DNA of 44,785 nt from an uncultured Clostridia bacterium (GTDB lineage Bacteria; Bacillota; Clostridia; TANB77; CAG-465), in assembly GCA_944386345.1 (NCBI GenBank), contig CALXAR010000007.1, positions 1 through 44,785 of the forward strand. Reading direction: 5' to 3'. Both the position numbers and the translations under genes were made by a program. The notes below the pieces were generated by a model. That model was not told the origin of the DNA and searched no databases. It saw only the letters and a program-made list of their open reading frames with translations. Each line of letters begins with the position of its first letter. The first letter of the stretch is position 1. Shown one piece after another: positions 29,451 through 32,045 of this stretch.

Positions 29451-30830
29451 TTAGATTATTTTTACACTCTTACCTTTTATGCTACCATTTTCAAACGCCC
29501 TTTCAATCTCATATAAATACTCTTTAGCAACTTCAACAGTAGTTTTATCTTCATAGACTTCTATTATACCAATATTTGATGAATTTATTCCAACAAGAGC
29601 TGATATAGCACCTACTATGTCTTTTGCCTTAATTCCGTCTTTTTTACCTAAACTAAAAGTAACTATATACAGTCCCCTTTTTGATATAGGATAATTACCA
29701 CTAATTTCTTTTGATATAATTGGTACATCCTGATAATGCATTTTTGTATGAGTATATTGCTCAATTTCTCTAATTTTCTCAATTTGTTTTCCTGTATATA
29801 ATGTATATGCAACTCCACTATTTCCTCTTCTTGCTGTTCTTCCTACTCTATGTACATACGACTCTACTTCAATTGGTATATCATAATTAATTACTAGCTC
29901 TAGATCATTAATATCTATTCCTCTTGACAATACATCTGTTACAACTATTGTGTCAAGTTTTCCATTCTTTAATTTTTCTATTACTTTTTCTCTTTGTGCT
30001 TGCTCTACATCACTATTTAGCATCTCAACTTTTAGACTATTTGATAAAAGAAATTTATATAAATTAGTAGTCTCTTTTTTGGTATTACAAAATACTATAC
30101 TATTTTTTGCTTTCTCTTTTTGTAAAATTCTTAGTATACATTGATTTTTAAATTTTTCTTTAACGTTAATAGCAATTTGAAAAATATTATCTACTAGCAT
30201 TGTGTCATTATCTTTACACTCAATATATATAGCATCTTTCATAACCTCATCTGCGACTAACTTTACTCTTTTATCAATTGTAGCTGAAAATAGTAACTTT
30301 TGTATATCTTGATTTAAGTATGTTAATATTTTTTTTACATCTTTGTAAAAACCCATACTAAGCATTTGATCTGCCTCATCTAGCACAACTGAACTTATGT
30401 TTTTAAGATTAATTTGTTTTCTTTTAAATATATCTAGTATTCTTCCTGGTGTACCCACTATTATATTAGTTTTATTTCTTATAGAAGATATCTGTTTTAT
30501 AATATCCCTTCCACCATATACTGCACTAATTTTTATCTCTTTTACATATCTACAAAATTTATTAGCTTCATTAAAAATTTGAATTGCAAGCTCTCTTGTA
30601 GGAGTAACAATTAAAACTTGAGACTGCTTATTTAAAATATCTACATTATTTATAAGAGGTAATAAAAAAGCAGCTGTTTTTCCAGAGCCAGTACTTGCCA
30701 TTGCAATTACATCTTTTTTATCTAATATATAATTTAAAGTTTTCTCTTGTATTTTTGTGAGATCTTTATATCCAATCTCATCTATTGCTTTTATAATATT
30801 TTTATTTAGTTTAGTATCTATAAATTTCAT
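29451..30830 (-). CDS. DEAD-box RNA helicase with DbpA-type RNA-binding domain
   Basis: This 459-residue ATP-dependent RNA helicase is likely involved in ribosome assembly or mRNA turnover. Helicase motifs are all present: Q-motif region KIQEKTL, Walker A ASTGSGKT (45-52), PTRELA, GTPGR, DEAD (151-154), SAT, SRGID and HRVGRTARRG. The C-terminal ~75 residues (TFSLGKKDGIKAKDIVGAIS and the IGIIEVYEDKTTVEV strand) match the DbpA/CsdA RNA-binding domain. The start at 30830 is preferred, with GGGA 10 bases upstream; ATG at 30839 abuts the ribosome site and a TTG at 30857 lies in the promoter -10. Substrate RNA is unknown. Confidence 0.93.
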   Translation of the reverse strand: MKFIDTKLNKNIIKAIDEIGYKDLTKIQEKTLNYILDKKDVIAMASTGSGKTAAFLLPLINNVDILNKQSQVLIVTPTRELAIQIFNEANKFCRYVKEIKISAVYGGRDIIKQISSIRNKTNIIVGTPGRILDIFKRKQINLKNISSVVLDEADQMLSMGFYKDVKKILTYLNQDIQKLLFSATIDKRVKLVADEVMKDAIYIECKDNDTMLVDNIFQIAINVKEKFKNQCILRILQKEKAKNSIVFCNTKKETTNLYKFLLSNSLKVEMLNSDVEQAQREKVIEKLKNGKLDTIVVTDVLSRGIDINDLELVINYDIPIEVESYVHRVGRTARRGNSGVAYTLYTGKQIEKIREIEQYTHTKMHYQDVPIISKEISGNYPISKRGLYIVTFSLGKKDGIKAKDIVGAISALVGINSSNIGIIEVYEDKTTVEVAKEYLYEIERAFENGSIKGKSVKII

Positions 30831-30856
30831 ATTTTTCATTCCCTTTTTTAGGGACA

Positions 30857-30885
30857 ATTATACCATAATTATATTTATTATTCAA
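30857..30885 (-). promoter_or_regulatory. Promoter of the DEAD-box helicase gene
   Basis: TTGAAT (30880-30885), a 17-base spacer and TATAAT (30857-30862) on the minus strand. The leader is about 20 bases. Confidence 0.7.
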
Positions 30886-30890
30886 TAAAA

Positions 30891-31130
30891 AAGGAGACCA
30901 AGAAATATATCTTGGCCTTAAGGTTTATATATGAAAAAATAATTATTGCTGTCTTATTTATTACAACTATATTATAATAATAAATTATGTTAGTTTTATG
31001 ATTATTTTTTGTTTTTTATTAGAAATGGAAACAGAGGACAAAATGTCCTCTTTAGGTTTATATATGAAAAATTATGATTATATAATATAGCTTAAATGTG
31101 ATAATTTTATGATTATTTTTTGTTGCTTAA
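30891..31130. repeat. Tandem two-copy intergenic element upstream of dapA
   Basis: This 354-base gap between the helicase and dapA holds no gene but two copies of one element. Each has a hairpin (CCAAGA with TCTTGG at 30898-30915; AGAGGACA with TGTCCTCT at 31033-31051), then the identical AGGTTTATATATGAAAAA (30921-30938; 31054-31071), a non-matching spacer of 55 or 33 bases, then the identical block starting TTTTATGATTATTTTTT (30994-31013; 31105-31124). Repeat period is 111-133 bases. Conserved blocks with unrelated spacers suggest function rather than simple duplication: twin small RNAs, regulatory leaders, or protein-binding sites. The strand is not settled. Confidence 0.65.
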
Positions 31131-31184: not shown

Positions 31185-32045
31185 ATGAAAAATATTTCTG
31201 GAAGCGGTGTTGCTCTTGTTACTCCATTTACTCATGACAATAAAATAAACTATGATAAATTGGATGAACTAATTGAATATCATATTAAAAATGAAACAGA
31301 TTTTATCGTTATATGTGGGACTACTGGTGAATCCTCTACTCTGTCAGAAGATGAAAAAAAAGAAATCATTTACCATACATCAAAAAAATTTAAAAATAAA
31401 ATACCTATTATTGCTGGTACTGGCTCTAATGACACGAAAAAAACTATAAACTTAAGTACATTTGCCAAAAAAGCCAATGTAGATGGTCTACTTATAGTTA
31501 CTCCATACTATAATAAATGTAATCAAAAAGGACTTTATGAGCATTACAAGAAAATTGCAGAAAGTGTGTATCCACTTCCAATAATTCTATATAATGTTCC
31601 ATCTAGGACCTGTGTCGATATAGCTTTAGATACGATAATTAAATTATCTAAAATCGAAAATATTATAGCTATTAAAGAAGCCAATCCATCATTAGAAAAG
31701 ATCTCTCAAATTATATATAATACTCAAAATAATAATTTTAAAGTTTTCTCAGGAAACGATAACTTAACTTATCCTATTTTATCTTTAGGAGGAGATGGTG
31801 TAATATCAGTTTGTGCTAATATTATACCAAAAGAAATGCATCTAATATGTAAAAATCACGATAAAGATTTGTTCTTTAAATATTTAAATTTAATGAACGA
31901 CTTATTTTTAGATGTAAATCCAATAATGATAAAAGAAGCAATGAACTATCTAAATTTTGATGTTGGAGATGTTAGACTTCCCTTATACAAATCTGACAAC
32001 GAAAAAATAAATAAGCTAAAAAATACAATTGACGAGGTTATTTAG
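31185..32045 (+). CDS. dapA: 4-hydroxy-tetrahydrodipicolinate synthase
   Basis: This 286-residue aldolase-fold enzyme condenses pyruvate with aspartate semialdehyde, the first committed step to diaminopimelate and lysine. The Schiff-base lysine is K164 (IAIKEAN), the catalytic tyrosine Y136 (YNVPSRT) and the pyruvate-binding GTTGES begins at 45. GDGVISV near the C-terminal third is also conserved. No lysine riboswitch or dapB neighbour is seen. The repeated element at 30891-31130 lies upstream. Ribosome site GAGGTGA precedes the ATG, and the hairpin overlapping its stop ends the unit. Related N-acetylneuraminate lyases lack this exact motif set, but confusion is possible. Confidence 0.93.
   Translation: MKNISGSGVALVTPFTHDNKINYDKLDELIEYHIKNETDFIVICGTTGESSTLSEDEKKEIIYHTSKKFKNKIPIIAGTGSNDTKKTINLSTFAKKANVDGLLIVTPYYNKCNQKGLYEHYKKIAESVYPLPIILYNVPSRTCVDIALDTIIKLSKIENIIAIKEANPSLEKISQIIYNTQNNNFKVFSGNDNLTYPILSLGGDGVISVCANIIPKEMHLICKNHDKDLFFKYLNLMNDLFLDVNPIMIKEAMNYLNFDVGDVRLPLYKSDNEKINKLKNTIDEVI

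Follow-up and report, generated by a model that had tools for sequence, protein, structure and literature searches.

Tandem candidate small RNA genes beside dapA share a regulator-type box and an antisense seed with a two-component locus in uncultured gut Clostridia

Introduction

What is the role of two tandem copies of a noncoding element that lie between dapA and a divergent helicase gene in an uncultured gut Clostridia bacterium? The window, by which we mean the whole 44,785-nt stretch analyzed here, is a single contig from genome G000, an assembly of 66 contigs totaling 1.29 Mb. A preliminary description had noted the element and offered three readings of it: twin small RNAs (sRNAs), a tandem regulatory leader for dapA, or paired binding sites shared with the helicase gene. 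Its interpretation is in part supported. We consider it likely, from comparative sequence analysis, that the copies are tandem minus-strand sRNA genes that are controlled by a two-component system and block translation of mRNAs for exported proteins. This takes up the first of the three readings, with the RNAs pointing away from dapA. None of the titles found in a literature search names the element, which is no proof of absence.

Results

The element and its conservation beside dapA

The blocks are arranged as the preliminary description had them. The 18-base block AGGTTTATATATGAAAAA (block A, plus strand) is identical at 30921-30938 and 31054-31071, and the 20-base block TTTTATGATTATTTTTTGTT (block B, plus strand) is identical at 30994-31013 and 31105-31124, in the same order in both copies and with spacers of unequal length, 55 and 33 nt. 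Directly before each copy on the plus strand is a hairpin, as had also been claimed, and both hairpins stand out from shuffles in folding (z −3.70, 2/200; z −3.89, 0/200). A search for the 20-base block as a 21-mer, allowing 3 mismatches, gives an expectation of 0.09 matches per shuffled window, with two matches in 0/100 shuffles; this is far beyond chance in this AT-rich window. The 18-base block alone is not rare at up to 3 mismatches (shuffle mean, 0.90; at least two matches in 23/100 shuffles), but both copies are exact. Two ideas about how the blocks relate were dropped: helical phasing, because copy 1 spacing varies irregularly, and a conserved pairing of A with B, because the part of B involved would differ from species to species.

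Stronger proof that the element is real than these shuffle statistics comes from its conservation among genomes of the genus. We found dapA in 27 of 28 genomes (G006 had no match; in G021 the gene is in two pieces), and 13 of these have the element upstream of the gene. Two units are present in G000, G019, G007, G010, G012, G014, G020, and G004, the first unit of G004 being without the box described below, and one unit is present in G003, G005, G025, G026, and G016. Kinase identity to G000 (see below) is 76% or more in the 13 element-bearing genomes and at most 60% in the 14 genomes with dapA and without the element. The position is syntenic, not scattered. In G025 and G004, the helicase is not the neighbor (its place is taken by what we presume to be an engB-like GTPase gene in G025 and by another gene in G004), and the element is kept beside dapA. 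Of the proposal of paired binding sites shared with the helicase, this speaks against the helicase part; the binding-site part stands, since block B belongs to a response-regulator-type site.

A minus-strand gene order

On the minus strand, the parts of both copies follow the same order: a direct repeat, 9 nt, a TAWWAT −10 hexamer, the invariant 18-nt stretch UUUUUCAUAUAUAAACCU (the seed), and a hairpin, followed in copy 1 by a T-tract (Table 1). In minus-strand alignments the repeat is ATCATA-N5-ATCAYA, with an 11-bp period, and the 20-base block forms part of it; some units have AACAYA or ATCAAA as the second half or TACATA as the first. The repeat, the fixed 9-nt spacing, and TAWWAT occur on the minus strand in 20 units from 13 genomes. 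Between the −10 and the TTTTTCATATATAAACC stretch are about 10 to 45 variable nucleotides; TTTTTCATATATAAACC has variants of 1 to 2 nt in some species, and the hairpin comes next. The seed is downstream of the −10 in every dapA-linked unit. It is the comparison of genomes that shows the strand, the box, the −10, the seed, the copy 1 terminator, and the link to the two-component operon. The parts of a two-component-controlled sRNA gene (regulator-type site, −10, RNA, and terminator) are ordered on one strand, with the terminator clear only for copy 1.

Table 1. Positions of the predicted sRNA gene parts and of the flanking genes in the window
Feature	Position	Strand	Remarks
Copy 2 promoter	31082..31113	-	ATCATA (31108-31113) and ATCACA (31097-31102), 9 nt, −10 TATTAT (31082-31087); exact pattern match; 26.6 bits
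Predicted sRNA copy 2, ~53 nt	31023..31075	-	Ends inferred from −10 and hairpin
Copy 2 seed TTTTTCATATATAAACCT	31054..31071	-	Unpaired in predicted fold
Copy 2 hairpin, 8 bp, 3-nt loop	31033..31051	-	Minus-strand tail T-poor, 4/8
Copy 1 promoter	30971..31002	-	ATCATA (30997-31002) and AACATA (30986-30991), 9 nt, −10 TATAAT (30971-30976); one mismatch to pattern; 15.9 bits
Predicted sRNA copy 1, ~82 nt	30883..30964	-	Ends inferred
Copy 1 seed, same sequence as copy 2 seed	30921..30938	-	Mostly unpaired in predicted fold
Copy 1 putative terminator	30883..30918	-	Hairpin 30895-30918 and T-rich tail 30883-30894; covariation; 6 T in first 8 tail bases
dapA, 4-hydroxy-tetrahydrodipicolinate synthase, divergent neighbor	31185..32045	+	TIGR00674, 320.1 bits (cutoff, 206.15)
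DEAD-box RNA helicase with DbpA-type RNA-binding domain, downstream neighbor	29451..30857	-	PF00270, PF00271, PF03880

The preliminary description had also proposed that the hairpins change in a compensating way, and copy 1 bears this out. Across 10 sequences, one per genome, 7 of its 9 pairs have changes on both sides with 95.6% of cells paired, which 0/500 shuffles reach. Its minus-strand tail has 6 to 7 T in 8 bases in 9 of the 10 genomes (the tail of G026 scored 0 because it folded into a second hairpin), against 2 to 5 in the plus-strand tail. By covariation and T-tract, the copy 1 hairpin reads as a terminator. For copy 2, the minus-strand tail has 6 T of 8 in G012, G014, G020, and G003, 4 in G000, G019, G007, and G010, and 2 in G004, where it is folded through its tail; plus-strand tails have 3 to 5, with 5 of 8 in G000, G019, G007, and G010. 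Because the minus-strand tail is T-poor in G000, terminator function is doubtful there, and copy 2 of this genome may be poorly terminated.

A two-component locus with the same box and seed

Searches of the genus with the box and with the seed complement both led to one second locus, which encodes a response regulator of the OmpR/PhoB type (PF00072 and PF00486) and a histidine kinase. The kinase was found in 28/28 genomes. We trained a weight matrix on 34 kinase-locus boxes only, leaving out the dapA-linked sites. On the coding strand, boxes of at least 15 bits lie upstream of the regulator in 25/28 loci (none in G015 or G018; the locus is truncated in G024) and downstream of the kinase in 22/28, counts that hold partly by construction because the matrix was trained on such boxes; an opposite-strand site was present in 1/28 loci (G021). 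When 432 kb of G000 was ranked, the regulator and kinase sites, both in the training set, came first and second, and the window copies, which were not, came third and fourth at 26.6 and 15.9 bits; the fifth site scored 14.6. Outside the genus, we searched 12 genomes and found a regulator relative in 9; at 5 of these loci, the gene strand has a box-like site of at least 15 bits; in two other genera, with one locus scanned in each (L239 and L241), there was no box. The box upstream of the regulator is probably an old autoregulatory site.

Downstream of the kinase in G000 is a noncoding stretch with boxes (L129:3230-3700, minus strand; counterparts in L141, L142, L143, and L206-L212); at its end, TTTTTTCATATATAAACTTGA is followed by a hairpin and a T-rich tail. 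Downstream of the kinase in at least 15 of the 28 loci, the 18-nt seed (up to 2 substitutions allowed) precedes a hairpin; G003 has a variant of the seed, and further variants, for example TTTTTCATATAAGAAC, occur in more distant members. In G006, the kinase-linked RNA is on a contig other than that of the kinase (C87, L237), with two boxes and the seed. The core CATAATT-N5..30-CAATTCCTATACA was found, as an exact match, in 18/28 genomes of the genus and 4/357 others of the order, and a scan with the kinase-linked seed matched 14 named stretches, 13 of them from Clostridia, Clostridiaceae, or Erysipelotrichaceae MAGs and one from a Desulfobacterales MAG. In our reading, the kinase-linked RNA, which has the same box and nearly the same seed, is the more widespread member, with the dapA-linked pair as its compact relatives. 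In several species, the kinase-linked RNA has repeated GGAGGTGATATATG stretches that resemble ribosome-binding sites with start codons and are followed by short frames. Another RNA, in which CTAATCTCTAAC is conserved, seems to be driven by a second box farther upstream at the kinase locus.

The seed and its candidate targets

Reverse complementing the seed gives AGG-TTTATAT-ATG-AAA-AA, made up of a Shine-Dalgarno sequence, a spacer, and AUG-AAA-AA. Being complementary to AGG-N7-AUG-AAA-AA, it can cover both the Shine-Dalgarno sequence and the start codon. In G005 and G014, exact 18-nt matches include the start regions of long, surface-protein-like genes with signal-peptide-like starts, some of them with dockerin-like repeats (the repeat was named by eye). 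Over the 28 genomes, the seed complement (up to 2 mismatches) occurs 204 times, a number that includes the sRNA genes themselves, versus 107 for the reversed pattern. The excess is not seen in every genome (G027, 7 versus 10 reversed).

We then compared the pairing of the seed with start regions in 432 kb of G000 (372 genes with a Shine-Dalgarno sequence, 99 exported) and 354 kb of G014 (304 genes, 65 exported), where gene calls are ORF based and the exported label comes from a crude hydrophobicity rule. Exported start regions pair better than others in G000 (P = 7.2e-6, 1.9e-5, 1.4e-3, and 1.0e-4 for four versions of the seed) and in G014 (P = 4e-5). We set the threshold for strong pairing at −11 kcal/mol. 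With the 18-nt seed, 22 exported regions of G000 reach it (shuffle mean, 3.67; 0/200 shuffles reach 22), as do 20 nonexported ones (mean, 8.62; 11/200). In G014, 16 exported regions (mean, 2.36; 0/200) and 21 others do so. Among the best-pairing 10, 20, and 30 start regions, 9, 15, and 21 are exported in G000 and 8, 13, and 16 in G014. The bias persists when only Met-Lys genes are considered, both in G000 (31 versus 49 genes; P = 1.7e-5) and in G014 (27 versus 38; P = 1.1e-3).

These first samples included hand-picked pieces (the window and L129 in G000; L136, chosen for carrying matches, in G014), and we repeated the statistics with all three excluded and 150 shuffles. Strong pairing was reached in G000 by 18/86 exported regions (shuffle mean, 2.86; 1 shuffle reaches) and 18/242 others (7.42; 7 reach), and in G014 by 12/59 exported regions (1.80; 1 reaches) and 20/232 others (6.94; 3 reach). 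The exported-minus-other difference was reached by 0/150 shuffled seeds in either genome. As a main target, dapA itself was rejected: its duplex, at −9.6 kcal/mol, is short of the threshold. Many of the 28 genomes also have AGGTTGATATATGAAAAC, a sequence two mismatches from block A, ahead of a short frame (L136:12734, G000:C21:19983, and others); in G014 this frame reads MKTKVFP-stop. The sequence is a conserved element.

Discussion

How might these parts work together? We infer the binding and activation by the regulator, the production of the RNAs, and the block of translation. The OmpR-type regulator, encoded with its kinase on another contig, would bind the 11-bp-period direct repeat, which would replace a −35 box, and activate transcription from the TAWWAT −10. 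Two RNAs of about 82 and 53 nt would be made, with an identical 18-nt seed and a hairpin end, and the seed would cover the Shine-Dalgarno sequence and the start codon of target mRNAs. Since the seed matches exported- and membrane-protein start regions best, the likely effect of an active two-component system would be lower translation of these predicted proteins. A search for Hfq found none in 28/28 genomes of the genus and was positive in 5/14 control genomes. With no Hfq found, the pairing would be Hfq independent.

The same minus-strand sRNAs under the same control could instead have a few specific targets or act in some other way, such as by binding ribosomes or proteins, and the exported bias would then reflect generic composition. 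We regard this as unlikely, and the outgroup G031 gives it some weight. G031 is of the same family and has a regulator that is 75% identical; it has no match to the core of the kinase-linked RNA. In G031, 8/71 exported regions pair strongly (shuffle mean, 2.03; 3/150 shuffles reach), the exported-minus-other difference is reached by 1/150, the Mann-Whitney P value is 0.052, and the best 10 regions hold 4 exported ones. Strong exported pairings in the genomes with the RNA, G000 and G014 together, compared with those in G031 (30/145 versus 8/71) give a Fisher P value of 0.06, and nonexported genes also match the seed better than shuffles do. Given the weaker bias of the outgroup, the seed match is in part a property that such start regions have in general and of which the seed can take advantage, and much of the target bias may be of this kind. 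A shift of exported start regions toward the seed (co-evolution) is suggestive at most, and is not established because the outgroup shows the bias too, more weakly. On the other side are the exact matches at surface-protein-like start regions in G005 and G014 and the persistence of the bias among Met-Lys genes.

The dapA leader that had been proposed would turn the element around: TATWAT would be a plus-strand −10, the 20-base block would lie near the 5′ end, and AGG-N7-AUG-AAA would start a leader peptide (MKK-stop in copy 1). TAWWATA is nearly palindromic, a −10-like hexamer lies on the plus strand 12 nt before TGATA in nearly all units (by eye), the copy 1 ORF reads Met-Lys-Lys-stop in G000, G019, and G007, and the units stay upstream of dapA. 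However, the box, the −10, and the copy 1 T-tract are all on the minus strand; the matrix, whose best site in each of the 13 dapA regions is on the minus strand, scored no plus-strand box there at 3 bits or higher; and box and seed are also present at the two-component locus, where there is no dapA. The leader peptide was rejected, as its frames are not conserved (by eye) and the AUG is lost in copy 2 of G020. We consider such a leader very unlikely. Still less probable, to the point that we give it hardly any credence, is a pure DNA element without an RNA product, made of paired regulator sites between divergent genes or of a mobile repeat. The box is a DNA site and there are two tandem copies, as such an element would have, but its hairpin is maintained by compensatory change, its position is syntenic, and the seed follows the −10 in every unit.

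The sRNA genes that we favor have parallels in two described systems. According to the parts of two reports on which we draw (PMC3091779 and PMC8186281), the csRNAs of Streptococcus, controlled by CiaRH, have predicted lengths of 51 to 202 nt, an intrinsic terminator, and an anti-Shine-Dalgarno and anti-AUG stretch in an unpaired region; tandem copies occur, and their promoters have a response-regulator direct repeat with N5 spacing just upstream of the −10. Here, too, a repeat with N5 precedes the −10, copies are in tandem, and the stretch complementary to the Shine-Dalgarno sequence and start codon is unpaired in copy 2 and mostly unpaired in copy 1; copy 1 has an intrinsic terminator by the signs given above, and copy 2 has a weak T-tract in G000. 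The details differ. As given in those parts, the CiaR box is NTTAAG-N5-TTTAAG at 10 nt from the −10, in contrast to ATCATA-N5-ATCAYA at 9 nt here, and the CiaR recognition helix is VVEVYVSKVRKKL, whereas the regulator of the boxed operon reads RTVDTHVKMLRNNL in the corresponding region (by eye). Unlike csRNAs, copy 2 here has a single stem-loop, and the host belongs to the uncultured gut Clostridia, not to the streptococci.

The second parallel is LhrC of Listeria. In the portion of the report used here (PMC4132741), LhrC is a multicopy sRNA under control of the two-component system LisRK that pairs through UCCC motifs, binds Hfq, and blocks its target lapB, which encodes a cell-wall-associated protein, at the Shine-Dalgarno sequence. 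The present element is likewise multicopy and linked to a two-component system, with a proposed anti-Shine-Dalgarno action on mRNAs of exported proteins; unlike LhrC as described there, neither predicted RNA has a UCCC, and the genus gave no Hfq match. Rfam had no gathering-level match in the window, and seven two-component loci yielded only a tRNA. Around the element, matches at E values up to 10 were limited to PreQ1 at 13.7 bits, against a threshold of 39, and a snoRNA at 18.5 bits, against one of 45. The kinase locus had four subthreshold matches, among them LhrC at 21.1 bits against a threshold of 110; the LhrC model had no gathering-level match in the window or the seven loci. By analogy, the element would work like csRNAs and LhrC, and it belongs to neither.

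If this is right, an sRNA family under two-component control is present in uncultured gut Clostridia where no Hfq was found, one that parallels csRNAs and LhrC and differs from them in its regulator box. More tentatively, and with considerable doubt, we suggest that one seed could be aimed at a class of proteins: as the antisense of a generic start of signal-peptide genes (Shine-Dalgarno sequence, AU-rich spacer, AUG, and Lys codons), it could let a two-component system throttle much of the secretome at once. Should the target bias be functional, it would illustrate how exported proteins can be targeted collectively by a short RNA, through the code at the start of signal-peptide genes. The box and seed provide a ready test set in the two-component operon, the adjoining noncoding RNA, and the ranked mRNA start regions.

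The signal that the two-component system senses would be envelope related, to judge from the exported-protein matches and from boxed FtsX-type permease genes by the kinase. In G023 and G001, a box lies before such a permease gene adjoining the kinase (L206:270 and L210:3704); the G023 permease has FtsX and MacB_PCD domains, and the gene after it encodes an ABC ATPase (Pfam, G023 proteins only). Elsewhere, in G019 and G007, a box of 23.4 bits directly precedes a gene that by eye is galE-like (L215:1613 and L216:1791), which is a possible further member of the regulon.
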